NCBI RefSeq assembly: GCF_900156625.1
Contig: NZ_FTOB01000001.1
Coordinates: forward strand, 372,001 to 436,000
Direction: 5' to 3'
From: Zobellia uliginosa
GTDB taxonomy: Bacteria > Bacteroidota > Bacteroidia > Flavobacteriales > Flavobacteriaceae
Length of the DNA stretch: 64,000 nucleotides
Under the pieces are notes generated by a model. That model made no database searches. It was given only the letters and a program-made list of their open reading frames with translations, and was not told the DNA's origin. Position numbers and translations under genes: made by a program. Positions 29,730 through 47,172 of this stretch are shown here, piece after piece (position 1 is the stretch's first letter; each line of letters starts with the position of its first letter).

Positions 29730-30314
29730 TTAGGGTTCCTTTTTGTTGACCAGGCCCTTGGTAAACTCGTTAAGGGTCTCGACCTTTTCCTCAAAATCGC
29801 CTTTGATCGTCTTTCTGAATTCATTGAGGTTCTTCACAAGGTCATCTATGTTTTCAGGGATGACATCTTCAAAAAATTGCCGTAAACGCTTGGCCGTAGT
29901 CGGTGATTTTCCGTTGGTGGAAATGGCCACTTTTACATTTCCTTTGGTTACGATCCCTCCCATATAGAAATCACAAAAAGGTGGGTTGTCCGCCACGTTT
30001 ACCAATATACTCTGTGCCCGACAGTCGTGGTATACCTGTTCGTTTACTTCTACCTTATCGGTAGTGGCTACCACCATGTGCTTGTTTTTGAGGAAGCTTT
30101 CGTTATAGGTGCTCGTATGCATGGTGATGCCGAATTTCTCGGCCAGGGCAATGGTTTCTTCCCTGAACATGGGCGATACCATTTCAACCTGTGCGTTCGG
30201 ACTCGATTTTAGCAGGAAGCTCAGTTTTTCCAAAGCTACGTTTCCGCCCCCCACGATCAAAACGTTCAAGTTGGATACCTTTAGAAATACGGGGTACAGT
30301 TCATTCCGCTCCAT
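29730..30314 (-). CDS. Precorrin-2 dehydrogenase / sirohydrochlorin ferrochelatase (Met8-like)
   Basis: From ATG at 30314 (MERNELYPVFLKVSNLNVL) the protein has 194 residues. It has a Rossmann NAD motif (VLIVGGGNVALEKLSFLL), the conserved NVADNPPFCDFYMGGIVTKG (usual form NVxDxPxxCxFxxPA) and VAISTNGKSPTTAKRLR. It oxidises precorrin-2 and inserts iron to make siroheme, the cofactor of the NirB nitrite reductase encoded in the same operon. The methyltransferase half of E. coli CysG is absent and is supplied by the separate cobA gene. Its start overlaps the end of the kinase gene by 14 bases. Confidence 0.9.
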   Translation of the reverse strand: MERNELYPVFLKVSNLNVLIVGGGNVALEKLSFLLKSSPNAQVEMVSPMFREETIALAEKFGITMHTSTYNESFLKNKHMVVATTDKVEVNEQVYHDCRAQSILVNVADNPPFCDFYMGGIVTKGNVKVAISTNGKSPTTAKRLRQFFEDVIPENIDDLVKNLNEFRKTIKGDFEEKVETLNEFTKGLVNKKEP

Positions 30315-32184: not shown

Positions 32185-32778
32185 TTAGCCCTTGATCGCT
32201 TTTGAAACCAGTTCCAATGCCGGTTTTGAAAGCGGAAGCTTTAATGCGGCTTGGTGGCCTGCTTCAGACATCTTGCGCCAGGTCTTCTGAAGAATGTCTA
32301 TTACCTTTTCCTCTTTGTGCTCGGCCGCGAAGGGTTCAAAGTAATACTGTAGAAAAACCAGGCAGACCACGTCTTCCAAAGTCTGGGTCTCTTGGTTTTT
32401 TTTGAGTTGTTTTTTTTCCAGCAAGAAGGTCACCTTATCTATGGTTTCCTGGTCGTATCCCACTTCCTCTAATATTGCCGAGGCTTTTTCGGCGTGAAAT
32501 TTTTTAAGGTCTTGACGCCATTTCAAATAGCCCGCGCGGTTCATTTCATACGCGTCACGGGGAATTTCCCAGCGGCAAATATGCTGGCACCTTGCGGTCA
32601 GCTGGAGGGCCTCCGAAGCGTTGGGCGCAAAATCGTTCAACTTCTCCGTCATACGAAGGGCGTAAAGCAATTCCTTAGGGTATGTTTTTCCCGAAGGCGC
32701 AGTTTCTGTATGGGGATCTTGTTCATTCGCCTTGTCGAACAAAGAAAAGGCTTGCTGTAATTTATCGGGCGATGCCAT
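32185..32778 (-). CDS. DUF4202 protein in the nitrite reductase operon
   Basis: A 197-residue soluble helical protein. It contains the conserved CQHICRWEIPRDAYEMNRAGY and LKKFHAEKASAILEEVGYD motifs of DUF4202, a family with HD-domain-like His/Asp spacing. DUF4202 genes repeatedly occur beside nitrate and nitrite assimilation genes, and here it lies between nirD and the sensor kinase. Its function is not established. The gap of 111 bases upstream shows no promoter match, so it is probably read through from nirB. Confidence 0.75.
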   Translation of the reverse strand: MASPDKLQQAFSLFDKANEQDPHTETAPSGKTYPKELLYALRMTEKLNDFAPNASEALQLTARCQHICRWEIPRDAYEMNRAGYLKWRQDLKKFHAEKASAILEEVGYDQETIDKVTFLLEKKQLKKNQETQTLEDVVCLVFLQYYFEPFAAEHKEEKVIDILQKTWRKMSEAGHQAALKLPLSKPALELVSKAIKG

Positions 32779-32889: not shown

Positions 32890-33267
32890 CTATTCCATAA
32901 AACCAACATAGACGGTTTCACCCTCTACCTTAACGGGATAGGTGGCGATGGCATCGAGGCTTCCGTTGAGGTTTTCCCCTGTTTTTAACGAAAAGGTACT
33001 TTTGTGAAGGGGGCACGCAATCTTGGGCTGCCTATCTTCTTCCCCGATCATGCCACGGGAAAGCACCATTTCCATTTTATGCGGACATAAGTTTTGACAG
33101 GCATACCACTGGCCTTGGCGCGTAAAATTGAAAACGGCGATCTGTTTGTCTTTGTATTTGATGCAGGCTCCTCCGTTTTTTGGGAATTTATGTACTGGTC
33201 CGGCCTTGAACCATACCTTTACTTCTTCGGTTGTTACGCTTTCGTATGTACTTAAATTTGCGATCAT
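32890..33267 (-). CDS. nirD: Nitrite reductase small subunit NirD (Rieske type)
   Basis: A 125-residue protein with the Rieske [2Fe-2S] ligand pairs CPHKM and CPLHKSTF, separated by about 20 residues, in a small beta fold. E. coli NirD lacks the cluster ligands, while this version keeps the full CxH...CxxH set, so it may be a true electron carrier. It lies 77 bases downstream of nirB and should form the NADH-nitrite reductase with it, reducing nitrite to ammonium in the cytoplasm. Confidence 0.9.
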   Translation of the reverse strand: MIANLSTYESVTTEEVKVWFKAGPVHKFPKNGGACIKYKDKQIAVFNFTRQGQWYACQNLCPHKMEMVLSRGMIGEEDRQPKIACPLHKSTFSLKTGENLNGSLDAIATYPVKVEGETVYVGFME

Positions 33268-33344: not shown

Positions 33345-35861
33345 TTAGGCCCATTCCTTTGGCATTTTTTGCTCACGTAAGGATACGAACTCAATGTTGT
33401 CATCGGTTTCGTCAGAGTTGATAAAGTGGGTATAGCGTTCCCTTATTTCCGGAGTCTCTACGGCCTCTTTCCATTCACATTTATAGGTGTCGACAAACTT
33501 TTGCATGTCGGCGTCCAATTCTTTTGCAATACCTAGGGAATCGTTGATGACTACATTTTTAAGATAGGTAATGCCCCCTTCCAGTTTTTCAAGCCATGCG
33601 GCGGTTCTTGTAAGTGGTGGTGCCGTTTTGATATAGAACATCATAAAACGGTCTACATATGTTATGGCAGTTTTCTTATCGACTTTTTCGGCCAGTAGTT
33701 CGGCATGCCTTGGGTTGGCGCCACCATTCCCGCCTACGTATACGTTCCATCCGCCTTCAACGGCGATAAAGCCAAAATCTTTGCCACGGGCTTCGGCACA
33801 TTCGCGAATGCAGCCCGAGACACCTCCCTTAAATTTGTGGGGGGAGCGTATACCCTTGTACCTGTTCTCTATTTCAATGGCAAAACTTACACTTTCGTCC
33901 ATACCGTAGCGGCACCAGGTAGAACCGACGCAGCTTTTTACGGTCCGCAGCGATTTTCCATAGGCTTGACCCGTTTCAAAACCTTCGGCTATAAGCTCTT
34001 CCCAAATCAAGGGAAGTTCGTGCAGTTTGGCGCCGAACATATCGATGCGTTGTCCTCCCGTAATCTTGGTGTACAAGTCGTATTTTTTGGCGATTCGACC
34101 CATGGCCATGAGTTGTTTTGGGGATATTTCCCCTCCGGCCACCCTAGGTACGACGGAATAGGTTCCGTTTCGCTGTATGTTGGCTAAATAACGGTCGTTA
34201 CTATCTTGAATGGTTTCTTGGCGGTTGGCCGTTTCATTGTAGATACTGGCAAAAATTGAGGCAGCTAAGGGTTTACAGACTTCACAGCCATGGCCTTTTC
34301 CCACCTCGTCCAACAATTGGTCGTAATCTTCTATGCCCCTGAGTTTTACGATATCGAAAAGTTCTTGTCTAGAATAGTCAAAATGCTCACAGATGTTTTC
34401 CTTTACCGTTTTCCCCAAGGTCTTTAGGCTTTCCTTTACCAAATCGGCCACCATGGGTTTACATCCTCCGCAGCCTGTAGTGGCCTTCGTGGCCTTGGCG
34501 ACGGCCTTTACGGTTTCGTTGCCGTCGTCGATTACCGAACAACAGACCGCTCCTTTAGTTACGGCCTCACAAGAACAGATAACGGCCGTATCGGGCAGGT
34601 CCATGGCACTTCCGAAGGCAGAACCGCCTTCGCCCCTTGCACCAACGATGAGCTCTTCGGCATTGTCGGGTAGGGGGATGTTGTTGAGGTACATCTGGTG
34701 AAGAATGCTGTAATCGGCGGCATCGCCGACCATGATGCCTCCCAATAGGGTTTTACCGTCATGGCTTACGTTAATTCTTTTATATAGGCCTTTGGTCTTA
34801 TTTTCATAGATAATGGAGAGGCCTTTGTCCGCAGGCATATACGGTATTCCAAAACTGGCGACATCTACCCCAATAAGTTTTAGTTTGGTAGACATGTCTA
34901 TTTCCGCCCTCATTATAACCTCATAGCTTTCTACGATTTGGTTGACCGCAACTTCTGCCATTTCATAACCGGGCGCTACGAGGCCATATATCATTTGGTT
35001 GTACAGGGCCACTTCGCCAATGGCGAATATAGAGGGGTCTGAGGTCTGCATTCTGTCGTTTACCACGATACCCCCACGAACGCCCATTTCAAGGTTACAG
35101 GTTCTTCCGAGTTCATCCCTAGGCCGTATTCCCGCCGAAATGACCAGCATATCGACTTCAAGGGTGTCGTCTTCGCCAAAATCCATTCCCGTTATGGCGC
35201 CGTTGCCCAGAATCCGGTTGGTAGCCTTTCCGGAGTGGACGTTGATACCCATATTTTCGAGGGTAAGTTGTAGCACATTGCTACTTCTGGAGTCGAGCTG
35301 TCTCGGCATCAATTTTGGGGCATATTCCACGACGTGGGGCTCCAGTCCCATATCCATTACGGCTTTACCCGCTTCAAGACCTAGAAGTCCCCCACCCAAA
35401 ATGGCCGCTCGTCCCTTGGTTTTCTTTGACTTTATCTTTTCGGCATAATCGAGCATGGCTTCGAGGTCCTCTATAGTTCGGTATACAAAGACCCCTTCTT
35501 TTTCAACCCCGTTTATAGGGGGCACAAAAGGGCTGGAACCCGTGGCGAGTACCAAGTAGTCATAGGTATAGGTTTTATCGCTTCCGGTAGTTACCGTCTT
35601 TGTCTTGCGATGAATGTCGGTAATACGTTCGTTTACGATAAGTTCTATTTTGTTTTCGGCATACCAGTCCATTGGGGCGAGTTCCAATGCCTTTGCATCG
35701 CGGTTTCCAAAGAATTCACTGAGATGCACGCGGTCATAGGCAGCTCTTGGTTCCTCACCGAAAACGATGACCTTAAAATTTTCTGATTCTTTGCGGGCGG
35801 CGAGTTTTTCACAGAACTTGTATCCGACCATGCCGTTTCCGACAACAATAATAGTTTTCAT
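33345..35861 (-). CDS. nirB: Nitrite reductase large subunit NirB
   Basis: From ATG at 35861 (MKTIIVVGNGMVGYKF) the protein has 838 residues, near E. coli NirB (847). In order it shows an FAD/NAD(P) domain (IIVVGNGMVG and AAILGGGLLGLEAGKAV), two BFD-like [2Fe-2S] segments (CSCEAVTKG, TGCGGCKP and HGCEVCKP), a nitrite/sulfite reductase ferredoxin-like half domain, and the siroheme/[4Fe-4S] ligands CVGSTWC and CIREC. It reduces nitrite to ammonium with NADH. The frame stays open to 35918, but those residues are not part of the family. A perfect TACGTA palindrome lies 31-46 bases upstream of the start. Confidence 0.95.
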   Translation of the reverse strand: MKTIIVVGNGMVGYKFCEKLAARKESENFKVIVFGEEPRAAYDRVHLSEFFGNRDAKALELAPMDWYAENKIELIVNERITDIHRKTKTVTTGSDKTYTYDYLVLATGSSPFVPPINGVEKEGVFVYRTIEDLEAMLDYAEKIKSKKTKGRAAILGGGLLGLEAGKAVMDMGLEPHVVEYAPKLMPRQLDSRSSNVLQLTLENMGINVHSGKATNRILGNGAITGMDFGEDDTLEVDMLVISAGIRPRDELGRTCNLEMGVRGGIVVNDRMQTSDPSIFAIGEVALYNQMIYGLVAPGYEMAEVAVNQIVESYEVIMRAEIDMSTKLKLIGVDVASFGIPYMPADKGLSIIYENKTKGLYKRINVSHDGKTLLGGIMVGDAADYSILHQMYLNNIPLPDNAEELIVGARGEGGSAFGSAMDLPDTAVICSCEAVTKGAVCCSVIDDGNETVKAVAKATKATTGCGGCKPMVADLVKESLKTLGKTVKENICEHFDYSRQELFDIVKLRGIEDYDQLLDEVGKGHGCEVCKPLAASIFASIYNETANRQETIQDSNDRYLANIQRNGTYSVVPRVAGGEISPKQLMAMGRIAKKYDLYTKITGGQRIDMFGAKLHELPLIWEELIAEGFETGQAYGKSLRTVKSCVGSTWCRYGMDESVSFAIEIENRYKGIRSPHKFKGGVSGCIRECAEARGKDFGFIAVEGGWNVYVGGNGGANPRHAELLAEKVDKKTAITYVDRFMMFYIKTAPPLTRTAAWLEKLEGGITYLKNVVINDSLGIAKELDADMQKFVDTYKCEWKEAVETPEIRERYTHFINSDETDDNIEFVSLREQKMPKEWA

Positions 35862-35891
35862 AGGCTTCGATTTTAAACTACTTAGCAATAT

Positions 35892-35907
35892 TACGTATAA
35901 ATACGTA
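35892..35907. promoter_or_regulatory. 7-2-7 palindrome in the nirB/cobA divergent region
   Basis: TACGTATAAATACGTA is a perfect inverted repeat of TACGTAT around AA. It lies between the nirB start and a nirB-direction -7-like element (AAAATTTG, 35916-35923, minus strand), so it would sit just after that transcription start. On the cobA side it is about 32 bases upstream of the cobA -7 element. The identical 16-mer occurs at 42120. Confidence 0.7.
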
Positions 35908-35934
35908 TACAACATCAAATTTTATCGAAATAAT

Positions 35935-35946
35935 TACGTAGTTTTG
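35935..35946 (+). promoter_or_regulatory. cobA promoter overlapping a TACGTA half site
   Basis: TACGTAGTTTTG contains a TACGTA half site (35935-35940) fused to the -7 element TAGTTTTG (35939-35946). The same fusion occurs at the narK promoter. Confidence 0.6.
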
Positions 35947-35985
35947 TTGAGGAATTACCAAAAGAAGCTTATAAAATTATTAGGG

Positions 35986-36759
35986 ATGAAAATTGAAAAA
36001 GAAGCAAAGGTTACATTGATAGGGGCTGGTCCAGGTAGCTCAGACCTTATAACAGTTAGGGGTTTGGAGGCTTTGAAGGCAGCCGATGTCGTATTATACG
36101 ATGCCTTGATAGGGGAAGAGTTGCTAGGGCAGATTGATGCCCGTATTCCGAAAATATACGTAGGAAAACGATGCGGACAACATGCCTTTACCCAAGATGA
36201 TATTAATGTGCTTATAGTGGAAAAAGCGTTTGAACAGGGTCATGTGGTCCGCTTAAAAGGCGGTGACCCCTTTGTTTTTGGACGGGCCCATGAAGAAATA
36301 GATTATGTTGAATCTTTTGGTATTCCTGTAAGGGTGGTCCCGGGAGTGTCAAGTGCCATTGCCGTTCCGTCCGGTCAGGGCATACCCATGACGCGTAGAG
36401 GGGTGAGCAGTAGTTTTTGGGTGATGACGGCCACCAAAAGGGACGGCTCCTTCTCCGAAGATTTAAAGTTTGCCTCACAGTCTTCTGCCACTATGGTTAT
36501 ACTAATGGGAGTTAGAAAACTCGCGGAGATTTCGGCCGAGGTAAGTAAATACAGGGGTTCCTTAACACCGATGGCGGTCATTCAAAATGGTACCATGCAG
36601 AATGAATCTTGTATCGTGGGGACATTGGGGGGTGTGGCATCCGCTATTTCCGATATCGATACTTCCAAACCGGGCATCATCGTAATTGGCGATGTAGTTG
36701 CCGAGCATCCTTCCTTTTTTGAGGAAGAGGTCCAGCGCGTTCTTCGTTCCAGTCTCTAG
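35986..36759 (+). CDS. cobA: Uroporphyrinogen-III C-methyltransferase (SUMT)
   Basis: From ATG at 35986 (MKIEKEAKVTLIGAGPGSSD) the protein has 257 residues, the size of a stand-alone SUMT. It has the signatures VTLIGAGPGSSDLITVRG, VGKRCGQHAFTQ, VRLKGGDPFVFGRAHEE and VVPGVSSAIAVPSGQGIPMTRRG. It methylates uroporphyrinogen III twice with SAM to give precorrin-2, which the Met8-like enzyme then turns into siroheme for NirB. It is divergent from nirB across the shared regulatory region, so enzyme and cofactor supply are probably induced together. The start was chosen from family length and promoter position. Confidence 0.95.
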   Translation: MKIEKEAKVTLIGAGPGSSDLITVRGLEALKAADVVLYDALIGEELLGQIDARIPKIYVGKRCGQHAFTQDDINVLIVEKAFEQGHVVRLKGGDPFVFGRAHEEIDYVESFGIPVRVVPGVSSAIAVPSGQGIPMTRRGVSSSFWVMTATKRDGSFSEDLKFASQSSATMVILMGVRKLAEISAEVSKYRGSLTPMAVIQNGTMQNESCIVGTLGGVASAISDIDTSKPGIIVIGDVVAEHPSFFEEEVQRVLRSSL

Positions 36760-36806
36760 GAGCGGTAATAGCGTCGGGTGCGTATTCCTTATATAATAGG
36801 TGTCAT

Positions 36807-36854
36807 CGCCCTGTAAAATACTTGTAATAAGTGTTTTGTAGGGCGGTTTTTTTT
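36807..36854 (+). terminator. Intrinsic terminator after cobA
   Basis: A 17-bp stem from CGCCCTGTAAAATACTT to AAGTGTTTTGTAGGGCG (three G-U pairs) with a 5-base loop is followed by eight T. It separates cobA from narK transcription. Confidence 0.85.
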
Positions 36855-36931
36855 GTTTCGAATCCGATTTCGTCAAATTCCAAAGGCCTTTTTTTTCGAT
36901 ATCTGATTTTTGGCTTCATCTCGTTTGTATC

Positions 36932-37005
36932 CTCGTAAAAATACGTAGTATTTCTATTGTTTTTTAAAATATACGTAGTAATACGTATTTATATACGTAG
37001 TTTTG
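36932..37005 (+). promoter_or_regulatory. narK promoter with clustered TACGTA operators
   Basis: The -7 element TAGTTTTG is at 36998-37005. TACGTA hexamers lie at 36942, 36972, 36982 and 36994. 36972-36987 (TACGTAGTAATACGTA) has the same 10-bp spacing as the nirB site; CTCGTAAAAATACGTA at 36932-36947 is a weaker copy. The last hexamer overlaps the -7 element. No -33 TTG is visible at the normal distance, which suggests dependence on an activator. Confidence 0.65.
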
Positions 37006-37034
37006 GATATCGTTAAACCTAAAACATCCGTATT

Positions 37035-38450
37035 ATGGAAACACCATCTAAAAAAGCGACTACCTTAAAACTGACCGATCTCAAAAGTATGCCCATCCGT
37101 ACGTTTTGGATTACTTCAATAGCCTTCTTTATTTGTTTTTTCGCCTGGTTTGGTATTGTACCTTTTATGCCTGACGTGGTAAAAGACTTGGGACTTACGC
37201 CTGATCAAAAATGGAACTCGATCATATTGGCCGTAACGGGAACCGTATTTGCACGTTTACTGATCGGTAAGCTTTGCGATAAATACGGACCACGCCTATG
37301 TTATACCTATCTATTGGTTTTGGGGGCCATACCCGTTATACTTCTCGGTTTTGTACAGACCCCGACCCAATTTTTGATTTGCCGTCTGTTTATCGGCTTT
37401 ATTGGGGCTTCCTTTGTTATTACCCAATTTCATACCTCTATCATGTTCGCCCCTAATATTGTGGGCACGGCCAATGCAACTTCTGCAGGCTGGGGCAACT
37501 TGGGCGGGGGCGCCAATCGTTTAGGGATGCCATTAATAGCGGCAGCCGTCGTTAGTTTTGGGGTGGCCGATGAAATTGCATGGCGTTATTCCATGGTCAT
37601 TGCAGGTGTAATTGCAATGCTTATGGGAGTGGTGTATTACTTTTTTACACAGGATACGCCCGAAGGGAACTTCGCCCAATTGAAAAAAGAAGGAAAAATG
37701 CCGACCATTAAGAAAGATGAAGAAGGCTTTTTAAGCGCCCTTAAAGATTATAGGGTGTGGATTCTCTTTATCGTATACGGCGCCTGTTTCGGTATTGAGC
37801 TTACCGTTTACGGAACGATGGACGATTACTTGCAGAATACTTTCGGACTCACACGGTCTACGGCCGGAAACTTAGTGCTTTCCTTTGCCCTGATGAATAT
37901 TTTTGCGCGCACCTTGGGCGGCTTTTTTGGCGATAAATTCGGAAAACTCAAAGGCCTTCGGGGTAGGGTGCTTTTTCTGACTATGATCCTCGCAGTGGAA
38001 GGGGTCATGTTAACGGTGTTTTCAGCGACCACAAGTATCGCTTTCGGAATGGTTTTCTTGATATTGTTCAGCCTTTCGGTACAAATGGCCGAAGGCGCCA
38101 CCTTTTCCGTAGTGCCCTTCATCAATAAAAAAGCGATCGGTTCTATATCGGGCATCGTAGGTGCGGGCGGAAACGTCGGCGCATTTTTGGCGGCCATGTT
38201 CCTCAAGTCTAAATCCGCTATTGCCGAGACAACTGCCCTGGCGGCGAATTCCAATTTGGGCGAGGAAGCCATGAAAGCGGCCCAGTCGGCGGCGGCTTCC
38301 AGTGCGGTGTCGAGCGGTTATTTTATCATTGGCGGTTTTGTGGCCGTCACCGCCCTTACCACGCTAGCCATTAAGTTCTCTACAGCGGATGAAAAGGCCG
38401 TAGCGGAAGAAATGCAAGGCAAGCTGGCAATTTCCGGAGCGGACAAATAA
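37035..38450 (+). CDS. narK: NarK/NNP-type nitrate/nitrite transporter (MFS)
   Basis: A 471-residue protein with 12 membrane helices. The nitrate-signature glycine motifs are visible: NATSAGWGNLGGGANR in the first half and GSISGIVGAGGNVGAFLAAMF in the second, with Arg residues in helices 2 and 8 (ARLLIGKLCDKYGPR, ARTLGGFFGDKFG) that bind nitrate in this family. It imports nitrate, or exchanges nitrate for nitrite, across the inner membrane to feed the reductases encoded here. It has its own promoter with several TACGTA sites and is followed by the outer-membrane protein gene 99 bases away, probably in one transcript. Confidence 0.93.
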   Translation: METPSKKATTLKLTDLKSMPIRTFWITSIAFFICFFAWFGIVPFMPDVVKDLGLTPDQKWNSIILAVTGTVFARLLIGKLCDKYGPRLCYTYLLVLGAIPVILLGFVQTPTQFLICRLFIGFIGASFVITQFHTSIMFAPNIVGTANATSAGWGNLGGGANRLGMPLIAAAVVSFGVADEIAWRYSMVIAGVIAMLMGVVYYFFTQDTPEGNFAQLKKEGKMPTIKKDEEGFLSALKDYRVWILFIVYGACFGIELTVYGTMDDYLQNTFGLTRSTAGNLVLSFALMNIFARTLGGFFGDKFGKLKGLRGRVLFLTMILAVEGVMLTVFSATTSIAFGMVFLILFSLSVQMAEGATFSVVPFINKKAIGSISGIVGAGGNVGAFLAAMFLKSKSAIAETTALAANSNLGEEAMKAAQSAAASSAVSSGYFIIGGFVAVTALTTLAIKFSTADEKAVAEEMQGKLAISGADK

Positions 38451-38549
38451 GCAACACATATTACAAGTATGGACACTTTTGGAAACCCTGTTGTTCCTAA
38501 TCACTTTTCATGGGTGTCCTTTTTATTCCAATCTGATAACCCCCTTTTT

Positions 38550-39842
38550 ATGAAAAAGCAATATGCAGTACTGGTTCTTATGGTCTTGTTCGTACAAACC
38601 GTATTTGCCCAGTTTACCTTAGACGGACAATTCCGTCCGCGAACCGAATACCGCCATGGTTTTGGGAGTATCATTCCCGATGCGGCCGATGCCGGGTATG
38701 CCATTAGCACCCGTATGCGTTTGAACGCCGGGTATAAAGTGGATAGCTATGAGTTTTACCTTAGTTTTCAAGATGTATTGGTTTGGGGGGAAAACAGACA
38801 GATCCGCCCAGATGAAGAGAACAATTCTTTTGCCGTATTCGAGGCTTGGGCCAACCTTAACTTGGGTAAAGGATGGTCTACAAAACTAGGAAGACAAGTG
38901 ATTTCATACGACGACCAACGTATTTTTGGCGGCTTGGATTGGGCGCAGCAAGGAAGAAACCACGATGCCGGCCTCTTACAATACAAAAAGGACAAATTTA
39001 TGCTGGATGTCGGTCTGGCCTTTAGCCAAGATTTTGACAGCCCAACGGGCTTTCAGTCGGTGGGTACGGCCTATAATACAACGGGGTATTTTTCCTATAA
39101 AACCATGCAGTACCTGTATCTAAAACAAAAATGGACCCATTTCTCGGGAAGCCTCTTGCTACTGAACAATGGCTTTCAAAACTTTACGGGCGATGCCGAT
39201 GCCCAAGTAGCCGATGGCACGAGTAACCTCCAGACCATGGGAACCCACCTAGAGTATAAAAACGGAAAATTTGGTAGTGCGGTGAATGCCTATTTTCAAA
39301 CCGGGGAAAGACAAAATGAGCTTAAGGTAAGCAGTGCTTATTTGCTGGGACTGGATTTGACCTATAAGGCCAGCGATAAAGTAGGACTGGGAATCGGAAC
39401 GGAATTGACCAGCGGTAACAAAACGAACACTGCCGATCAAACCGAAGCCTTTTTTCCGCTGTATGGAACCAACCATAAATTCAATGGTTTTATGGATTAT
39501 TTCTACGTAGGGAACCATGCCAATAGCATCGGTTTATTGGATGTTCATGCGAGCGCCAATTTTAAATTGGGGGAGAAATCGAGTTTGTTGGTAAAAGTTT
39601 TAAACTTTAGTGGCGAGCAGGAATTGCCCAGTGGGAAAAAATCCTTGGGAGCCGAGGTAGACCTAGTGTTCTCAAAGAGCTTCAACGGTTACGGGTTGGC
39701 CATTGGTTATTCTCAAATGTTTGCCAGCGATGGCCTTTATGAGCTAAAGGGTGTGGGGGAAGATGTAGCGGCCAGCAGTCAGAATTGGGCTTGGGCCATG
39801 CTTACGATAAAACCAAAGTTTCTAAACACCTCTAAAGACTAA
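38550..39842 (+). CDS. Outer-membrane beta-barrel porin-like protein (alginate-export type)
   Basis: From ATG at 38550 (MKKQYAVLVLMVLFVQTVFAQ) the protein has 430 residues including a signal peptide. The mature part is a run of amphipathic strands with many Tyr, Phe and Trp (RPRTEYRHGF, YEFYLSFQDVLVWGEN, KLGRQVISYDDQRIFGGLDW), the layout of the alginate_exp/porin family. It probably forms an outer-membrane channel. Position after narK suggests a nitrate porin; the family name does not imply alginate here. The frame is open to 38469, but only the later start gives a signal peptide. A terminator follows. Confidence 0.85.
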   Translation: MKKQYAVLVLMVLFVQTVFAQFTLDGQFRPRTEYRHGFGSIIPDAADAGYAISTRMRLNAGYKVDSYEFYLSFQDVLVWGENRQIRPDEENNSFAVFEAWANLNLGKGWSTKLGRQVISYDDQRIFGGLDWAQQGRNHDAGLLQYKKDKFMLDVGLAFSQDFDSPTGFQSVGTAYNTTGYFSYKTMQYLYLKQKWTHFSGSLLLLNNGFQNFTGDADAQVADGTSNLQTMGTHLEYKNGKFGSAVNAYFQTGERQNELKVSSAYLLGLDLTYKASDKVGLGIGTELTSGNKTNTADQTEAFFPLYGTNHKFNGFMDYFYVGNHANSIGLLDVHASANFKLGEKSSLLVKVLNFSGEQELPSGKKSLGAEVDLVFSKSFNGYGLAIGYSQMFASDGLYELKGVGEDVAASSQNWAWAMLTIKPKFLNTSKD

Positions 39843-39870
39843 CGCACTTTTGTAAAGATGCTTCGATAGG

Positions 39871-39909
39871 GCCGTTACAACCTTTTGTTGTAGCGGTTCT
39901 TTTGTTTTT
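39871..39909 (+). terminator. Intrinsic terminator after the narK-porin unit
   Basis: GCCGTTACAAC (39871-39881) pairs with GTTGTAGCGGT (39887-39897) around CTTTT, followed by TCTTTTGTTTTT. Confidence 0.75.
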
Positions 39910-39965
39910 AAATGGATCGAGGCTGGGTATAATGCCTTGTGCATCGCTCTTTATAAAAAACCGAT

Positions 39966-39989
39966 TATATTTGTACGTATAATTACGCA
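39966..39989 (+). promoter_or_regulatory. Response regulator promoter with downstream 7-2-7-like site
   Basis: TATATTTG (39966-39973) matches TAnnTTTG. TACGTATAATTACGCA (39974-39989) follows directly and has the 10-bp hexamer spacing with one mismatch in the second TACGTA. It covers the probable transcription start, so the regulator may repress its own gene. Confidence 0.6.
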
Positions 39990-39993
39990 TATT

Positions 39994-40665
39994 TTGGACC
40001 AAACAACGAGTATCATTTTAGCGGACGACCATTCTTTGGTTCGAGACGGCATTAGGGCTTTACTGGAAAGTGAATCCGATTTAAAGGTTATCGGGGAAGC
40101 TTCCGACGGTATCGAAGCGATTGAAATGGTGAACAAAAGTGCACCGGATCTATTGATCATCGATATTCGAATGCCACGGATGACCGGTATTGAGGCTGTT
40201 GAAAAGCTAAGTGCCCAAAATTCGCCCGTAAAGTGCATTATTCTTTCCATGCACGACTCTGAAGAGTATATTTTGCAATCGGTAAAAGCTGGTGCACGCG
40301 GCTACCTCTTAAAAGATACAGGTAAAACGGAATTTATCAAGGCCATTCATGCGGTTCGAGAAGGAGGCAAATACTATAGTGGCGATATTTCAAATGTTTT
40401 GGTCAACAGCTTGTTGAGTTCTACGGCCCCAACGGCCGAGCACCCAAAAAAGACAACGTCGACAAGCAATCCGTTTGACCTGACCAACAAAGAACTTCAG
40501 GTGTTGGAGTTGGTGTTATCAGGCTTAACGAACAAGCAGATTTCCGAAAAACTGCAGAACAGTAAGCGCACGGTAGAAACCCACCGCTTTAACCTTATGC
40601 GTAAAATGGAAGTCAAGAATCTCATCGACCTTTCAAAAAAAGCGCAGCAGTATAATTTGGTGTAG
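39994..40665 (+). CDS. NarL/FixJ-family response regulator
   Basis: From TTG at 39994 (DQTTSIILADDHSLVRDG) the protein has 223 residues. The receiver domain has the acidic pair DD, phospho-acceptor Asp57 (LLIIDIRMP) and the GARGYLLKDTGK switch Lys. A linker of about 35 residues leads to a LuxR-type HTH (LTNKELQVLELVLSGLTNKQ, SKRTVETHRFNLMRKM). The frame reaches back to a TTG at 39937, but the promoter at 39966-39973 rules this out. It probably receives phosphate from the NarX-type kinase at 30301 and binds the TACGTA palindromes of this region; the pairing is inferred from context. Confidence 0.88.
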   Translation: MDQTTSIILADDHSLVRDGIRALLESESDLKVIGEASDGIEAIEMVNKSAPDLLIIDIRMPRMTGIEAVEKLSAQNSPVKCIILSMHDSEEYILQSVKAGARGYLLKDTGKTEFIKAIHAVREGGKYYSGDISNVLVNSLLSSTAPTAEHPKKTTSTSNPFDLTNKELQVLELVLSGLTNKQISEKLQNSKRTVETHRFNLMRKMEVKNLIDLSKKAQQYNLV

Positions 40666-40703
40666 TACCATAGCTTTAAACACGCTCAGTAGTCTTTCCG
40701 AAT

Positions 40704-42047
40704 ATGGACCACGCCATTTTTTATCATATTTATCCCTTAGGGCTTCTCGGCGCCGACAAAAGCAATGATTTCACGGCTGCTCCGGTTAATCGGTTTTCGG
40801 AGCTTCATACTTGGTTGGACCATATGGTAGACTTAGGGTGCAACGCACTTTATATCGGTCCGGTGTTTGAATCTTCAACCCATGGCTACGATACTACGGA
40901 CTATTATAAGGTTGACCGCAGATTGGGTGATGATGCTGCGTTAATCGCTTTCATAGAGAAAGCCCATGAGCTGGGTATACAAGTGGTTTTAGATGGTGTC
41001 TTCAATCATGTGGGAAGGGATTTCTTCGCTTTTAAAGACCTTCAGGAATTGGGGAAGGATTCAAAATATACCGACTGGTTTTCAAATGTGGATTTTAAGA
41101 AACGTAGTCCCCTAAAAGACCCCTTTACCTATGATACTTGGGCAGGTCACTATGAATTGGTAAAATTGAATCTTGCGAACAAGGAAGTCCGCGACCACCT
41201 TTTTGGGGCCGTTAAAAAGTGGATAGGCACCTATAAGATCGATGGCCTGCGTTTGGACACTGCAGATGTATTGGATTTCGACTTTATGAAAGCACTGGCC
41301 CTTTTTTGTAAAAAGGAAAATCCCAACTTCTGGTTAATGGGAGAGGTGGTACATGGCGATTATAATCGGTGGGTAAATCCCCTTATGTTAGATTCCGTTA
41401 CCAATTATGATTACCACACCCCTATGTATGAAAGCTTCAACCTAAAGGATTTCAGTAAAATATCCGAAACGGTGGATGGAGATTTCGGTCCTAAGGGAGT
41501 TTATAAAGATTTGGCCCTCTATTCTTTTGTAGATAATCACGACGTTAACCGGGCCGCCAGTACCTTGAAGAAAGCTGAGCATTTGTTTCCATTATACCTG
41601 CTATTGTTTACCCTTCCGGGAATACCTGCCATTTACTACGGAAGCGAGTGGGGCTTTGAAGGGAAGAAATCTCCCCACAGTGATGATTTGTTGCGCCCAC
41701 CGGTAAAACGGAATGACCTCGGGAAGCAGGCCAAGCATCCAAAATTAATAGCGGCCATAAAGCAATTCATAGCGGTCCGAAAAAGCAGCGAAGCCCTCGT
41801 TAAAGGGGCTTACCAGACTTTATTGGTCACTAGGCAACACTACGCCTTTTCTCGAGAAAGTAATAACGAGACGGTTGTGGTCGTCGTAAACGCTTCAAAC
41901 AAGGCGGCACGTATACACATCCCCCTAAAGAGTCCGTCAGCAACGGTCTTTACAGATCTACTCAGTCCGAAATATAGCCTCGTCTCCGACAAAACCGGAC
42001 TTTATATTGAAGTTCCACCATGTTGGGGGCGTATCTTAGGCCATTGA
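40704..42047 (+). CDS. GH13 alpha-amylase-family glycoside hydrolase, cytoplasmic
   Basis: A 447-residue TIM-barrel enzyme without a signal peptide. The GH13 regions are all visible: DGVFNHVG (region I), GLRLDTAD with nucleophile Asp185 (II), MGEVVHG with acid Glu214 (III) and FVDNHD with Asp280 (IV). It probably acts on maltodextrin or cyclomaltodextrin. It follows the response regulator by 38 bases and precedes the nitrate reductase, so it is embedded in the nitrate locus with no obvious metabolic link. A starch cluster is not nearby. Confidence 0.88.
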   Translation: MDHAIFYHIYPLGLLGADKSNDFTAAPVNRFSELHTWLDHMVDLGCNALYIGPVFESSTHGYDTTDYYKVDRRLGDDAALIAFIEKAHELGIQVVLDGVFNHVGRDFFAFKDLQELGKDSKYTDWFSNVDFKKRSPLKDPFTYDTWAGHYELVKLNLANKEVRDHLFGAVKKWIGTYKIDGLRLDTADVLDFDFMKALALFCKKENPNFWLMGEVVHGDYNRWVNPLMLDSVTNYDYHTPMYESFNLKDFSKISETVDGDFGPKGVYKDLALYSFVDNHDVNRAASTLKKAEHLFPLYLLLFTLPGIPAIYYGSEWGFEGKKSPHSDDLLRPPVKRNDLGKQAKHPKLIAAIKQFIAVRKSSEALVKGAYQTLLVTRQHYAFSRESNNETVVVVVNASNKAARIHIPLKSPSATVFTDLLSPKYSLVSDKTGLYIEVPPCWGRILGH

Positions 42048-42119
42048 TCGAAACCTAGTGAAAAGCCGATTTTTTTGTTGATGTACGATTAAAACCCTAA
42101 ACTATTACGAAAAAAACAC

Positions 42120-42141
42120 TACGTATAAATACGTAATTTTC
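42120..42141 (+). promoter_or_regulatory. Nitrate reductase promoter with perfect 7-2-7 palindrome
   Basis: TACGTATAAATACGTA (42120-42135) is identical to the nirB/cobA site. Its right arm runs into TAATTTTC (42134-42141), a near match to TAnnTTTG, repeating the fusion of half site and -7 element seen at cobA and narK. Confidence 0.65.
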
Positions 42142-42189
42142 TAACTTGCTGTATGGAATTTTGGTGCCTTGCATCAAAAAGGAAAAGCA

Positions 42190-45100
42190 ATGTTAAAGAA
42201 GAAAACACATAAGACCGTTTGTTCCTACTGCGGTGTAGGTTGCGGTATACTGGTAGATGTAGACCATAAAGGAAAGATAGAGGTAGATGGGGACCCCGAT
42301 TATCCTGCCAATAAAGGCATGTTATGCTCCAAGGGAAGAAACTTGAATTATGTCGCCCAAGATACCAGTGACCGGATTATGCATCCGGAAATGCGATGGA
42401 GTAGGAACCATCCCCTGCAAAAAGTAAGCTGGGATACGGCTTTTGAGCGTGCCGCCGCCGTTTTCAAAAGTATTATCGCTAAACACGGACCCGATAGTGT
42501 CGGTTTCTACGTGTCGGGGCAATGCCTTACCGAAGAGTACTATTTGGTGAATAAGATTACCAAGGGTTTTATAGGAACGAACAATGTAGATACCAACAGT
42601 CGCCTATGTATGAGTTCTGCGGTTGTGGGCTATAAAAAAGCCTTGGGCGAAGACTCCGTGCCCATTTCCTATGAAGATATTGAATTAGCGGATTGTTTTT
42701 TGATCGCCGGAGCTAACCCTGCCTGGTGCCACCCTATTTTGTACAGGCGTCTAGAGCAACATAAAGAAGAGAATCCCAACGTAAAGATTATAGTTGTGGA
42801 CCCCCGAAAAACACAGACTTGTGCCTCGGCCGATTTGCATCTGCAAATCCTTCCGGGTACCGATGTCATCCTTTTCAATGCCATAGCGAGATGGCTTATC
42901 GAAAAGAAAAAAATAAATAAGAATTTCATTAAAAAACATACCTCTAATTTCGATGCGTGCAAAGAGAGCGCCTTTACTCTTTCACTTCGCCAGGCGGCCG
43001 AAAAATGTGGAGTGTCCCTTGCCGATATCCGAAAGGCGGCCCAATATATCGGCGATGCCAATAAGTTCATTAGCATGTGGACAATGGGGCTCAACCAAAG
43101 TGTGATCGGGGTGTCAAAAAACGTGTCTCTGTTAAACCTGTCCTTGTTAACGGGACAAATAGGAAAACCCGGTTGCGGGCCGTTTTCGCTAACAGGTCAG
43201 CCCAACGCTATGGGCGGTCGTGAAGTAGGGGGAATGGCAAGCCTTTTGGCAGCGCATAAAGATTTAGGCAATCCGAGGCACAGAAAGGAAGTCTCCGATT
43301 TTTGGGGAGGGAAGGAAATCAATTCCGAACCGGGCTATACCGCAACAGAAATGTTCGATGCACTGGAGAGTGGGAAATTAAAGGCGATTTGGATTATTTG
43401 TACAAATCCCGCGGTGAGCATGCCCAACGTAAAGAAGGTTGAAAAAGCGCTTAAAAACGCGGCATTTGTAGTCGTTCAAGATATCAGTCATAATTCCGAA
43501 ACCACAAAATTTGCCGATCTTTTATTGCCTGCGGCAGGCTGGTTGGAAAAGGAGGGCACCATGACAAATTCCGAAAGGCGAATCAGTTATTTGCCCAAAG
43601 TTATCGATGCACCGGGAGAGGCCTTGCCCGACGCCGAAATTCTTTGGCGCTTTGCCCAGGCCATGGGCTACGAAGGTTTTGATTATAACAATGCTAGCGA
43701 AGTGTATGACGAGCATTGTCTCTTGACCAAAGGCACCAACATTGATATTACGGGCCTATCTCACGAACGCCTGAAAAATGAAGGAAGTTTCCAGTGGCCG
43801 GTCCCCCATAAGACCCATCCGGGTACGCCACGCCTGTTTATGGACCTCAATTTTTATACGAACGATAAAAAGGCCCATTTTAATGCGCCACAGAGTCTCT
43901 ACAATAAATCAGAGGAAACCAATATTGATTTTCCCTTGGTATTGAATACAGGAAGGGTAAGAGATCAGTGGCATACCCGAACCAAAACCGGAAAAGTAAA
44001 GCGCTTGCTGACCCATATTCCGCAACCCTACCTAGAAATGAACAAGGTAGATGCCTATCTCCGAAAGTTAAAAGAAGGGGATATTGCGGTTGTTAAAAGT
44101 AGAAGGGGCGAAGTACAGGTGAAGGTAAAGATCAATTTTGATATTCGCGAACGCGTTGTTTTTCTGCCGATGCACTGGGGAAAAGTATTGAACAATGATT
44201 TTGGTAGGGCCAATAACCTCACAAACGACCTCGTTGACCCAGTTTCTAAAGAACCCGATTTTAAATACTGTGCCGTTCAGGTTGAAAAGTTTGTAAAGCC
44301 GGTTCAAAAAATAATTGTAATTGGAGCAGGTGCGGCCGCTTATCGGTTTATTCAGTCGTATCGGGAAAAAAATAAAAAGGATGAACTCCACGTATTTTCC
44401 AAGGAAAAAGATCCCTTTTACAATCGGGTGTTGTTGCCTGAATATGTAAGTGATGAACTTTCGTGGGAAGCCTTGGAGAAACTAAAATCAGGAGAATTAC
44501 AGAAACTGAACGTGAACTTGCACTCCGGAATCGGGATCAGTGATGTAAATACATCTATGAAACAGGTTACCGATAGCGACGGATTAATACATTCGTATGA
44601 CTTGCTCATAATGGCCACAGGAAGCCGTGCCTTTGTGCCCAGTGAGGTGCAAATAGACCTTCCCGGCCGTTTTACGATGCGTGAACGCGGTGATGCCGAT
44701 AAATTGAAGCAATATCTGCAAAAAACAGGGCTACCGGCAAATGAACAACATGTGGTGATTGTCGGTGGCGGTTTGTTAGGGTTGGAGTTGGCCGCCGCAC
44801 TTAAAAAGATAGACATCAATATAAGTATCGTACAAAGGGCACCACGCCTTATGGAACGTCAGTTGGATAGTATTGCAAGTCGACTTTTGGCGGAAGATGT
44901 CACTGAAAGAAATATCAACCTATACTTTGATAACGAGGTCAGCACGGTGTTCGAGGAAAAAGAGAATCCGTTTCGCTTACTGGTGAACCTAAAAACAGGA
45001 AGAACCATTCAATGTAACGCCATTGTTTATGCTATTGGAACAAGGCCCAATATTGAATTGGCGAAAAAAGCCGATTTAGTTACAAGACGGGGCGTGATCG

Positions 45101-45720
45101 TTAATTCATATTTGCAGACCAACGACCCATCTATTTTTGCCTTGGGTGAAATAGCGGAGTTCAATAACTCGCTTTTCGGAATTACCTCGGCCGCGGAACA
45201 ACAGGCAGATATTGCCGCCAACTATATTTTAGGCGATTATAGCAGCATTTATAACGGCTCCGTCCTTATGAATATCCTGAAGTTCGAAAACCTTGACCTC
45301 TGTAGTATCGGTATGGTAAATGCACCTTCGGGAGATAGTAGTTACGAAGAAATTATTTTGATGGATGTCAGCAAGCGCTTCTACAAAAAATGCATCGTTA
45401 AAGACGATACGTTAAAAGGAGCCATATTAATGGGCGATAAAAATGAGTTTGCCGAGTTCAAACGCCTGATAGAGGAAGAAATTGAACTATCGGAGAAGCG
45501 AAATGAGCTGCTTAGGGGGGCAACGACCACTGTTCCGCTAAAAGGGAAACTGGTCTGCTCCTGCAGTCAGGTAGGCGAAGGCAATGTTATTGACGCCATT
45601 GCCGGCGGTTGCTCCGAATTTAACGCCTTGTGTTCGGAAACCGGTGCAGGGTTGGGCTGTGGCAGCTGTAAACCCGAAGTAAAGGCCCTATTGAACAAAC
45701 AACTACAATTAGCAAATTAA
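42190..45720 (+). CDS. Assimilatory nitrate reductase fused to FAD and [2Fe-2S] reductase modules
   Basis: From ATG at 42190 the protein has 1,176 residues. Residues 1-700 are a molybdopterin oxidoreductase: the [4Fe-4S] motif CSYCGVGC...CSKG at the N-terminus, DTNSRLCMSSAV with the probable Mo-ligand Cys, and the C-terminal dinucleotide-binding domain (LNTGRVRDQWHTRTKTGK). Residues 715-1080 are an FAD/NAD(P)H reductase (IIVIGAGAAAYRFIQSY and VVIVGGGLLGLELAAAL) like NirB or NasB. Residues 1105-1170 are a BFD-like [2Fe-2S] domain (LVCSCSQVGEGN, GLGCGSCKPEVKAL). In Bacillus these parts are separate proteins (NasC and NasB). The fusion should reduce nitrate to nitrite directly with NAD(P)H. Confidence 0.92.
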   Translation: MLKKKTHKTVCSYCGVGCGILVDVDHKGKIEVDGDPDYPANKGMLCSKGRNLNYVAQDTSDRIMHPEMRWSRNHPLQKVSWDTAFERAAAVFKSIIAKHGPDSVGFYVSGQCLTEEYYLVNKITKGFIGTNNVDTNSRLCMSSAVVGYKKALGEDSVPISYEDIELADCFLIAGANPAWCHPILYRRLEQHKEENPNVKIIVVDPRKTQTCASADLHLQILPGTDVILFNAIARWLIEKKKINKNFIKKHTSNFDACKESAFTLSLRQAAEKCGVSLADIRKAAQYIGDANKFISMWTMGLNQSVIGVSKNVSLLNLSLLTGQIGKPGCGPFSLTGQPNAMGGREVGGMASLLAAHKDLGNPRHRKEVSDFWGGKEINSEPGYTATEMFDALESGKLKAIWIICTNPAVSMPNVKKVEKALKNAAFVVVQDISHNSETTKFADLLLPAAGWLEKEGTMTNSERRISYLPKVIDAPGEALPDAEILWRFAQAMGYEGFDYNNASEVYDEHCLLTKGTNIDITGLSHERLKNEGSFQWPVPHKTHPGTPRLFMDLNFYTNDKKAHFNAPQSLYNKSEETNIDFPLVLNTGRVRDQWHTRTKTGKVKRLLTHIPQPYLEMNKVDAYLRKLKEGDIAVVKSRRGEVQVKVKINFDIRERVVFLPMHWGKVLNNDFGRANNLTNDLVDPVSKEPDFKYCAVQVEKFVKPVQKIIVIGAGAAAYRFIQSYREKNKKDELHVFSKEKDPFYNRVLLPEYVSDELSWEALEKLKSGELQKLNVNLHSGIGISDVNTSMKQVTDSDGLIHSYDLLIMATGSRAFVPSEVQIDLPGRFTMRERGDADKLKQYLQKTGLPANEQHVVIVGGGLLGLELAAALKKIDINISIVQRAPRLMERQLDSIASRLLAEDVTERNINLYFDNEVSTVFEEKENPFRLLVNLKTGRTIQCNAIVYAIGTRPNIELAKKADLVTRRGVIVNSYLQTNDPSIFALGEIAEFNNSLFGITSAAEQQADIAANYILGDYSSIYNGSVLMNILKFENLDLCSIGMVNAPSGDSSYEEIILMDVSKRFYKKCIVKDDTLKGAILMGDKNEFAEFKRLIEEEIELSEKRNELLRGATTTVPLKGKLVCSCSQVGEGNVIDAIAGGCSEFNALCSETGAGLGCGSCKPEVKALLNKQLQLAN

Positions 45721-45732
45721 AAAATCGCGATT

Positions 45733-47172
45733 ATGAACGATGATCTGCACCGTATATTGATAAAAGGAGGGGTTACCTCCCCAGGCGAGCTTAAAGATAT
45801 TATTGGCCTGTTGGAAGCTGCGGGACTGAGCGAAGTTTACTTCGGGTCAAGACAAGATTTACTCTTTCCGCTAAAGGGCGTCGAAGAAGGTCAGTTGGAG
45901 CATATATCAAAGTTCAACACCAATATTATAACCAAAAGAAAATACCAGAATATCGTAAGCTCGTATGTTTCTGCCGATATTTTTGATATGACCCATTGGC
46001 TTAAGGGGTCTACCTATCTCTATATTTTAGAGGGATTTGATTTTCTGCCCGAACTAAAAATAAATATCACCGACCCCAAACAGAGGTTGGTGCCCCTTTT
46101 TAACGGCAACCTAAATTTTATTGCTTCGGAGAACGAAGACTATTGGTATTTGAACCTTAAGCTTCCGCATTGGGAAAAAGCGGCATATTATCCCGTTTTG
46201 ATCTATAGTTGGGACATTACCTTGATTTCCAAGGCTATTGAAGAAATTTATGAAGACATTCAAGATGTAGAAGAACTGTTTTTTATCTTGAACAAAAACT
46301 TGGATACCAACAACAAAACCATAGAAAAAGAACTAAAAGTACCCTACTTGACCTTTCCGTATTACGAGGGGATGAACCGTATGGGACTGGATCAATATTG
46401 GCTAGGGCTATACTGGAGGAACAACAGGTACGATCTTTCTTTTCTTAAGGAATTTTGTGGTTTTTGCCTTGACAATAGCATTGGGAAGATTTGCATTACC
46501 CCATGGAAATCGTTCATCGTAAAAGGGATAAAAAAACAGAGCAGACAGACATTAGAACGGTTTTTGGGGCAATGGGGGATAAATGTGAGACATTCACAGC
46601 TGGAAATGAATTGGCACCTTCCTGTAGACGATAATGAGGCTTTGGAACTCAAAAAGTTCTTGGTGCGCAGTTTTGACCAGAACGATATTAGCACGTACGG
46701 ACTAACGTTTGGCATTAGCAACGATGTGGGGAAGCGGTCGCATTTCGCTTCGGTTGTAATCGAGAAGAACAGCTCCCCTACGATCGTAAAAGATTTTGAT
46801 GTGCGGCCTACATATAATGTTCTTCACTTTCAGAATTTTGACCCCAATACCCAAAAATATTTAGCCTATGCCCAAGATGTAGATAAAATCGAGTTGCCTG
46901 GTCTGCTAATGGAACTCAGTAAGAAGTATTTTAATCAGTTGGGTAGGGAAGTCGGAAAAAACGAAGCGCCCAAAAAGCCTATGGAGCAAGAGACAAAGAT
47001 TATTCATCAATGCCAATCGTGCTTTACGGTCTACGACCCGATCTATGGCGATTCAATAGCTGATATTCCTGTAGGCACAGCGTTTGAAGATTTGCCGGCA
47101 ACCTATGTTTGTTCGGTCTGTGAAGCCCCAAAGGCACAATTTGAGAAAACGGAACTGAATTTCTCCATCTGA
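45733..47172 (+). CDS. Siroheme-reductase-like protein with C-terminal rubredoxin
   Basis: A 479-residue cytoplasmic protein. Residues 1-380 have the repeated ferredoxin-like half-domain pattern of nitrite/sulfite reductases and CobG, including ICITPWKSFIVKGI (usual RxTPWRxxxL). The usual siroheme/[4Fe-4S] ligand Cys pairs are missing (only EFCGFC is seen). Residues 430-475 are a rubredoxin (CQSC...CSVCEAPK), an iron one-electron carrier. The gene starts 12 bases after the nitrate reductase gene, so it is surely co-transcribed. It may carry electrons to that enzyme or to NirB; its exact role is unknown. Confidence 0.75.
   Translation: MNDDLHRILIKGGVTSPGELKDIIGLLEAAGLSEVYFGSRQDLLFPLKGVEEGQLEHISKFNTNIITKRKYQNIVSSYVSADIFDMTHWLKGSTYLYILEGFDFLPELKINITDPKQRLVPLFNGNLNFIASENEDYWYLNLKLPHWEKAAYYPVLIYSWDITLISKAIEEIYEDIQDVEELFFILNKNLDTNNKTIEKELKVPYLTFPYYEGMNRMGLDQYWLGLYWRNNRYDLSFLKEFCGFCLDNSIGKICITPWKSFIVKGIKKQSRQTLERFLGQWGINVRHSQLEMNWHLPVDDNEALELKKFLVRSFDQNDISTYGLTFGISNDVGKRSHFASVVIEKNSSPTIVKDFDVRPTYNVLHFQNFDPNTQKYLAYAQDVDKIELPGLLMELSKKYFNQLGREVGKNEAPKKPMEQETKIIHQCQSCFTVYDPIYGDSIADIPVGTAFEDLPATYVCSVCEAPKAQFEKTELNFSI

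Follow-up and report, generated by a model that had tools for sequence, protein, structure and literature searches.

The nitrate locus and its paired sites

A 64,000-nucleotide stretch of the genome of the seaweed-associated bacterium Zobellia uliginosa (contig NZ_FTOB01000001.1, positions 372,001 to 436,000; the window, numbered here from its first letter) contains a set of nitrate assimilation genes, several of whose promoters carry two TACGTA hexamers four base pairs (bp) apart, a candidate operator of the two-component system encoded at the same locus. Leftward from a gap at 35.9 kilobases (kb) lie nirB (33345-35861), nirD (32890-33267), a DUF4202 gene (32185-32778) directly 5' of the sensor kinase gene narHK (30301-32154), all on the minus strand, and a gene for a siroheme-synthesis protein. 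Rightward lie cobA (uroporphyrinogen-III C-methyltransferase, 35986-36759), the nitrate/nitrite transporter gene narK (37035-38450; its TIGR00886 match of 306.6 bits narrowly misses the cut-off of 311.7), a porin-like gene, the response regulator gene narRR (39994-40665, probable TTG start), an alpha-amylase-family gene, nasA (42190-45720), whose product joins a NasA-type nitrate reductase to a NirB-like FAD/BFD part, and a gene we label nirRub (45733-47172), which encodes a weakly matched nitrite-reductase-like half domain and a rubredoxin and has no operator of its own; cobA, narK, narRR, nasA and nirRub are on the plus strand.

The narHK protein has a PilJ/NarX-type sensor (PF13675, E 2.3e-12) followed by PAS, HisKA_3 (PF07730) and HATPase_c (PF02518) domains; HAMP and GAF-like domains were not found in the domain search, the PAS domain standing instead. 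A sensor helix of the form N-x-[AS]-G-x-Q-R-x-x-S-Q, which may correspond to the NarX P-box, is present across 90 aligned kinases. The narRR protein, the proposed binder, has receiver and LuxR-type (GerE) domains, and its nearest named relatives, at 90-92% identity, are from Zobellia species.

The exact pair TACGTANNNNTACGTA occurs three times in the window, at 35892, 36972 and 42120. The putative operator TACGTATAAATACGTA at 35892-35907 is common to nirB (minus strand) and cobA (plus strand) and is kept in relatives, the same sequence precedes nasA at 42120-42135, and TACGTAGTAATACGTA precedes narK at 36972-36987; none of these sites is assigned a strand, nor are the two that follow. A one-mismatch copy, TACGTATAATTACGCA, lies at the narRR promoter (39974-39989), and a weak, two-mismatch copy, CTCGTAAAAATACGTA, lies farther upstream of narK (36932-36947). 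The first-pass annotation of the window had listed all five places, and its pairs at 35892 and 42120 and its variant at 39974 stand; 36972, given there as a variant, is an exact pair, and 36932 is weak, since narK upstreams of relatives, read by eye, show mainly its right half and do not keep its left arm.

Allowing up to two mismatches, the window holds 9 matches, compared with a mean of 1.44 and a maximum of 5 in 100 shuffles. In the whole genome (5,303,163 bases) the only exact TACGTA-N4-TACGTA pairs are the three of the window, at nirB/cobA, narK and nasA, where 0.1 to 0.5 would be expected by chance from the hexamer frequency of the window. The earlier remark that pairs spaced by 10 bp were seen only here thus extends, at zero mismatches, to the genome, and the genome-wide search that it proposed finds the paired sites not to be scattered. 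When up to two mismatches are allowed, the genome has no excess of sites (164, compared with 161 in a reversed control). Only exact sites or conserved variants therefore carry meaning, and exact and relaxed-consensus forms replaced the mismatch-tolerant genome scan. The relaxed form TAMGTANNNNTACKTA, which the site at 39974 does not match, has four sites in the genome (2 in the reversed control), the three nitrate sites and a fourth within a coding sequence. None of the eight other one-mismatch sites of the genome has a match to a nitrate-locus protein in its 3-kb locus.

Conservation and arm orientation in relatives

Conservation was followed in two sets of loci. The first comprised 80 loci selected by the regulator, in which a pair with at most one mismatch in the 250 bp upstream was counted; such a pair is found at nasA in 73/74, nirB in 53/57, cobA in 50/54, narK in 44/44 and the regulator in 31/79, with 25 of the last 31 at -20. 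Control upstreams from the same loci have none (kinase 0/25, DUF4202 0/34, nirD 0/39, porin 0/74, nirRub 0/69). The second set, 60 loci chosen by the PilJ domain of the kinase and without regard to motif or regulator, covers 60 of the 77 genomes with PF13675, the remaining 17 lying outside it, and includes one locus (L150) without nirB; here the operator stands at the same promoters as in the regulator-selected loci. In a second clade, with a regulator about 48-55% identical, TAAGTA...TACTTA is commoner, and the general form is therefore TAMGTA-N4-TACKTA.

Counts of this relaxed form were pooled over the kinase-selected loci and six further genomes with nirB, 65 relatives in all, the window and G271 (nirB at a contig end) not being included; tblastn matches off a gene start, genes near locus ends, NirB/NasA cross-matches and weak NarK matches were left out. 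At nirB, 64 of the 65 have an exact site no more than 200 bp away, and the other one has a site with one mismatch. Exact sites are also found at narK (30/34), nrtA (16/17), the regulator (33/56) and nasA (24/50), and even with one mismatch none is found upstream of nirD (0/65), DUF4202 (0/63), the kinase (0/59) or nirRub (0/33). Sites are thus kept in relatives upstream of nirB, narK, nrtA, nasA and the regulator, which bears out the suggestion, made from the window, of a self-contained nitrate regulon.

TACGTA is its own reverse complement, so the exact sites of the window cannot distinguish an inverted from a direct repeat; the relatives do. Among 355 pairs of TACGTA, TAAGTA or TACTTA words in 459 unique upstreams (identical upstreams removed), 352 have TAMGTA as the left and TACKTA as the right arm. 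A hexamer spacing of 4 accounts for 352 cases, and any other spacing from 0 to 20 for at most 34. These pairs, like the aligned kinases and regulators, the -7 box offsets and the residue-196 figures given below, are pooled from both locus sets and may count one species twice. Where three hexamers follow at 10-bp steps, the shared middle one is TACGTA in 25 of 26 cases; it is the only hexamer that serves both orientations, which agrees with inverted arms. The site is thus an inverted repeat of 7-bp arms 2 bp apart, the geometry (7-2-7) of Escherichia coli NarL/NarP operators (PMC7419079; this and the other papers cited are referred to for the portions of their text available to us). The first-pass annotation had called the site NarL-like, correctly reckoning that TACGTAT agrees with the NarL heptamer TACYYMT at 6 of 7 positions. 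The geometry holds up, and the half-site does not: TAAGTAT agrees at 5 of 7, position 4 of the left arm is G in 98-99%, the heptamer consensus is not matched, and TAMGTA is nearer to the sites reported for FixJ, TAAGTAATTTCCCTTA and GTAMGTAG (PMC4999443).

Several observations weigh against assigning the sites to the two-component system of the locus. No exact site is present at nasA in 26 of the 50 relatives; in several of them nasA lies closely downstream of narK, and the two perhaps form an operon. At the regulator's promoter 23 of 56 relatives have no exact site, 11 of the 23 coming within one mismatch. When the survey was extended to the phylum (20 loci, from 20 of the 35 genomes in which PF13675 is matched), nirB lay beside the kinase in 8 of the 20, and 5 of these 8 had the exact relaxed motif at nirB, four from the same family and one (L189) from another; the motif is absent in L190 and L204, of another family, with regulators 40-41% identical. 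L195 (61% GC, another family) has several TACGTA words upstream of nirB and nasA at other spacings, its best match having 2 mismatches. Finally, the strict pattern occurs in 43 of 299 genomes of the family (5 in the reversed control), including genomes without nirB, and many of these pairs are not beside nitrate genes. Of 30 loci fetched from 30 of the 43 genomes, one per genome, and sorted by reading, 9 are at nitrate genes, 6 in a gap between convergent genes and 15 elsewhere, among them L042, the porin-PII promoter of G180. Genomes selected by the motif were set aside as proof of a link to nitrate, for which 9 of 30 is insufficient.

The convergent-gap loci (L029, L031, L034, L036, L041 and L045) each have the exact sequence TACGTATNNATACGTA at position 1501. 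The neighbouring gene encodes a different LuxR-type response regulator or, in L045, an aspartyl protease, the facing gene is 2-oxoacid dehydrogenase E2-like in five of the six (not in L029), and no nitrate gene is present in these 3-kb loci.

That the palindromes are chance or structural AT-rich repeats and no protein sites might be argued from these six gaps and from the genome-wide counts at up to two mismatches, which equal the reversed control. At the nitrate promoters, conservation refutes it: the sites keep a constant position with respect to start codons and -7 boxes (see below), their arms are conserved and their centre is variable, and such variation as the arms show is position-specific. 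We consider this explanation to have practically no chance of being correct.

Promoters and the probable binding protein

The -7 box of flavobacterial sigma-A promoters is TAnnTTTG, at -12 to -5 (PMC9723704). That predicted for nirB, TAATATTG (35886-35893, minus strand), has one mismatch to this consensus, has the outer TA of the operator in common with it, and is similar in relatives. At cobA a single TACGTA half-site runs into a perfect -7 box, TAGTTTTG (35935-35946, plus strand, the box at 35939-35946), an arrangement that is the consensus of cobA upstreams, and at narK a third TACGTA runs into a second perfect TAGTTTTG (36994-37005, plus strand, the box at 36998-37005). The predicted -7 box of the regulator gene, TATATTTG (39966-39973, plus strand), is directly 5' of the site at 39974, which is therefore placed over the predicted transcription start and may serve autorepression. 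For nasA a possible -7 box is TAACTTGC (42142-42149, plus strand), of the TAnnTTGY type (PMC9723704), with TAATTTTC at 42134 as an alternative.

In the relatives a perfect TAnnTTTG often begins with the final TA of the operator; this is so at 74 of 122 nirB sites and at 38 of 74 narK sites. The -7 box is 22-26 bp from the start of the site at 24 of 74 narK sites and 24 of 39 regulator sites. A TTG in the -33 region, 17-25 bp upstream of the -7 box, is present in 7 of 120 target promoters compared with 33 of 119 promoters that have TAnnTTTG but are not targets, and a count by distance gave the same result. A -33 element is thus rare and overlap with the -7 box common, a combination that favours activation.

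Some features of these promoters count on the other side. Operators that overlap the first two bases of a -7 box usually mean repression in other bacteria. A perfect TAnnTTTG at the overlapping offset is rare at nasA (9/94 sites) and nrtA (2/16). A TTG at a background distance (40-48 bp) is also rarer in the targets (5/120, compared with 16/119), so that composition explains part of the -33 difference, and in this comparison of 120 with 119 promoters identical upstreams were removed and related genomes are not independent. A narRR that acts as a repressor, blocking the -7 box until relieved by nitrate, would account for the frequent overlap at nirB and narK and for the site over the predicted start of the window's regulator gene. 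Such a repressor would not be expected to have target promoters so poor in a -33 TTG, which is what activator dependence predicts, nor does it suit those regulator and narK sites that have the -7 box 22-26 bp downstream, and it would be odd for nitrate to repress its own use; NarX and NarQ phosphorylate upon nitrate. We regard repression as an unlikely reading, though one to be taken seriously.

Three kinds of evidence suggest that narRR is very probably the protein that binds the operator. First, of the 299 family genomes 67 have nirB, and precisely these 67 have an orthologue of narRR (E <= 1e-58; the two genome lists, compared by eye, are identical); in G180 and G228 it lies on another contig than nirB. 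Second, the reading helix, SKRT-x-E-[TV]-HRFNLM-[RK]-K, is nearly invariant across 143 regulators. Although NarL (1a04) is the best of 168 matches in the PDB (124 bits), this helix resembles those of EsrB, SsrB and FixJ more than that of NarL, and the NCBIfam scores are all below their cut-offs (MctR 180 bits, cut-off 300; NarL 152, cut-off 250; FixJ 89.7, cut-off 255), the likeness to FixJ being one of resemblance and not of membership. If K188, V189 and K192 are, as we presume, the base-contacting residues of NarL, the aligned residues of narRR are E195, T or V at 196, and F199, and those of NarL are not kept. Third, residue 196, which is V in 43 of 142 relatives, tracks position 3 of the arm: TAAGTA makes up 19% of arms where it is T and 70% where it is V. 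This covariation is confounded with the split into two clades and to that extent tells less in favour of narRR. FixJ has V at the aligned position and a TAAGTA-type site (PMC4999443).

The sites could also be read as a TACGT-N6-ACGTA dyad bound by the Crp/Fnr-type regulator that relatives encode between narK and nrtA. Its gene is within the locus in several relatives (for example L046, 3276-4034), and in G180 and G228 it adjoins nirB, where the operator stays and from which the response regulator and kinase have moved away. Against this, the Z. uliginosa genome has no close orthologue (best identity 31%), and an orthologue (E <= 1e-50) is present in 49 of the 67 nirB genomes and in none of the other 18; the exact relaxed operator nevertheless remains upstream of nirB in the window and in all 17 fetched genomes without the Crp-type gene. 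The response regulator, by comparison, is present in all 67, G180 and G228 included, and triples at 10-bp steps would not fit a Crp dyad. A Crp/Fnr-type binder is thereby largely refuted, and we give it very little credence.

We consider it highly likely, from comparison of sequences, that the two-component system of the locus itself uses the paired sites as its operator. We infer that narHK would sense periplasmic nitrate through its PilJ-type domain and phosphorylate narRR, a dimer of which would bind TAMGTAT-N2-ATACKTA with one subunit on each arm. At nirB/cobA, narK, nrtA and nasA the dimer would sit in or just upstream of the spacer, at promoters with a -7 box and rarely a -33 element, and would most likely activate; at the regulator promoter of the window, where the site is over the predicted start, it would most likely damp expression.

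Sensor-less kinases and known systems

Among the 67 genomes with nirB, six have no PF13675 match. In one of these (G030) the kinase is full-length but diverged; in the other five (G002, G082, G237, G180 and G228) it starts right after DUF4202, is without the sensor, and is 446-477 amino acids long (L209 13175-14515, L211 12812-14179, L214 13438-14784, L216 10364-11797 and L217 10694-12103), the PAS and kinase parts being kept (Pfam was run on four of the five). In the regulator and kinase trees G002, G237, G180 and G228 form one clade (support 0.90 and 0.95), and G082 pairs with the PilJ-bearing G113; most simply, there have been two sensor losses and one expansion of the regulon.

The expansion is seen in the clade of four, in which the kinase is without the periplasmic nitrate sensor and retains a membrane part, PAS and the kinase domains. 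In all four the operator is upstream of a gene for a BBP2-type porin (L219 1989, L238 2122, L244 2668 and L246 2560), and the -7 box has the same offset in each; the porin gene is followed by genes for P-II and Amt in three genomes, and the G002 contig ends in the porin. In all four it is also upstream of the glutamine synthetase gene glnA (L241 2543, L237 2401, L243 2341 and L245 2684), compared with 0 of 60 other genomes (the 59 with a PF13675 match and G030), where the best match has at least 2 mismatches; G082, G165 and G271 have no match to this glutamine synthetase at the threshold. This systematic control covers the glnA promoter, and the porin-PII-Amt promoter was checked in part of the sensor-bearing genomes; operator places among 12 scanned genomes are listed for the PilJ-bearing G163, G175, G049, G075 and G011, and G000 is listed in a separate scan.

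In all 95 tested loci that hold both, the DUF4202 gene is the immediate 5' neighbour of the kinase gene, on the same strand, and the two stay adjacent even when they have moved away from nirB. The AlphaFold model of the protein is confident (pLDDT, the predicted local distance difference test, 92.9), and its best PDB matches are HD-superfamily hydrolases, weakly so (best E 0.056, template modelling score 0.55; none at E <= 0.001); His and Glu-Asp residues are invariant. DUF4202 may be a third component of the nitrate signalling system; its name is absent from the literature searched. It is conceivable, if somewhat less than probable, that loss of the sensor turned a nitrate switch into a general nitrogen switch like NtrBC, with an internal input through the PAS domain, the HD-like DUF4202 protein or both. 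With one regulon expansion, a connection between the two changes has a single event behind it.

Two further placements were observed in these genomes. In G180 and G228 the operator is also between citrate synthase and ilvD-type genes (L220 2255, L239 2448; Pfam for L220), and in G082 TACGTAACGTTACGTA is at three places (including L248 2602, which is the same as L223 1501, and L233 1501), possibly as a repeated element.

Flavobacteria rank among the main degraders of algal biomass. In the literature searched we found no account of the way in which these bacteria turn on nitrate use, of the operator code or its overlap with the -7 box, of the matching occurrence of regulator and nirB, or of the sensor-less expansion. 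A single-word operator code and its probable regulator allow nitrate regulons to be predicted across the family from sequence; they also supply a promoter ready for use as a reporter, and they show an operator that is fused with the Bacteroidota -7 box; and the sensor-less clade is a testable case of a two-component system that changes its signal and widens its regulon while keeping its DNA word.

The system is like NarX-NarL and NarQ-NarP of E. coli in its PilJ/NarX-type kinase, LuxR-family regulator, 7-2-7 inverted repeat (PMC7419079) and nitrate targets. It differs from these in that narHK has a PAS domain and no HAMP or GAF-like part, the half-site is TAMGTAT and not TACYYMT, the reading helix is not NarL-like, the site is embedded at a Bacteroidota -7 box, and the genes are those of nitrate assimilation and not of respiration. 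The kinase and regulator pair is already known in Bacteroidetes, where PMC8199190 named narHK and narRR and described a short sensor, PAS in some members and no HAMP or GAF; the present locus shares this sensor architecture and the nitrate neighbourhood. The available part of PMC8199190 gives no DNA site, targets or sensor-less forms, and the operator code and regulon are added here. Rhizobial FixJ is similar in its TVE-x-HR reading helix and its half-sites of the TAAGTA/GTAMGTAG type, and its site TAAGTAATTTCCCTTA is less symmetric than this operator (PMC4999443); unlike narRR, FixJ responds to oxygen by way of FixL, and its targets are fixK and nifA. Proteobacterial NtrBC exerts two-component control of glnA and PII-Amt with a sigma-54-type regulator. 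The sensor-less clade, as proposed, would be like NtrBC in controlling glnA and PII-Amt, and is unlike it in having a LuxR-type regulator and a HisKA_3 kinase whose relatives are nitrate systems.

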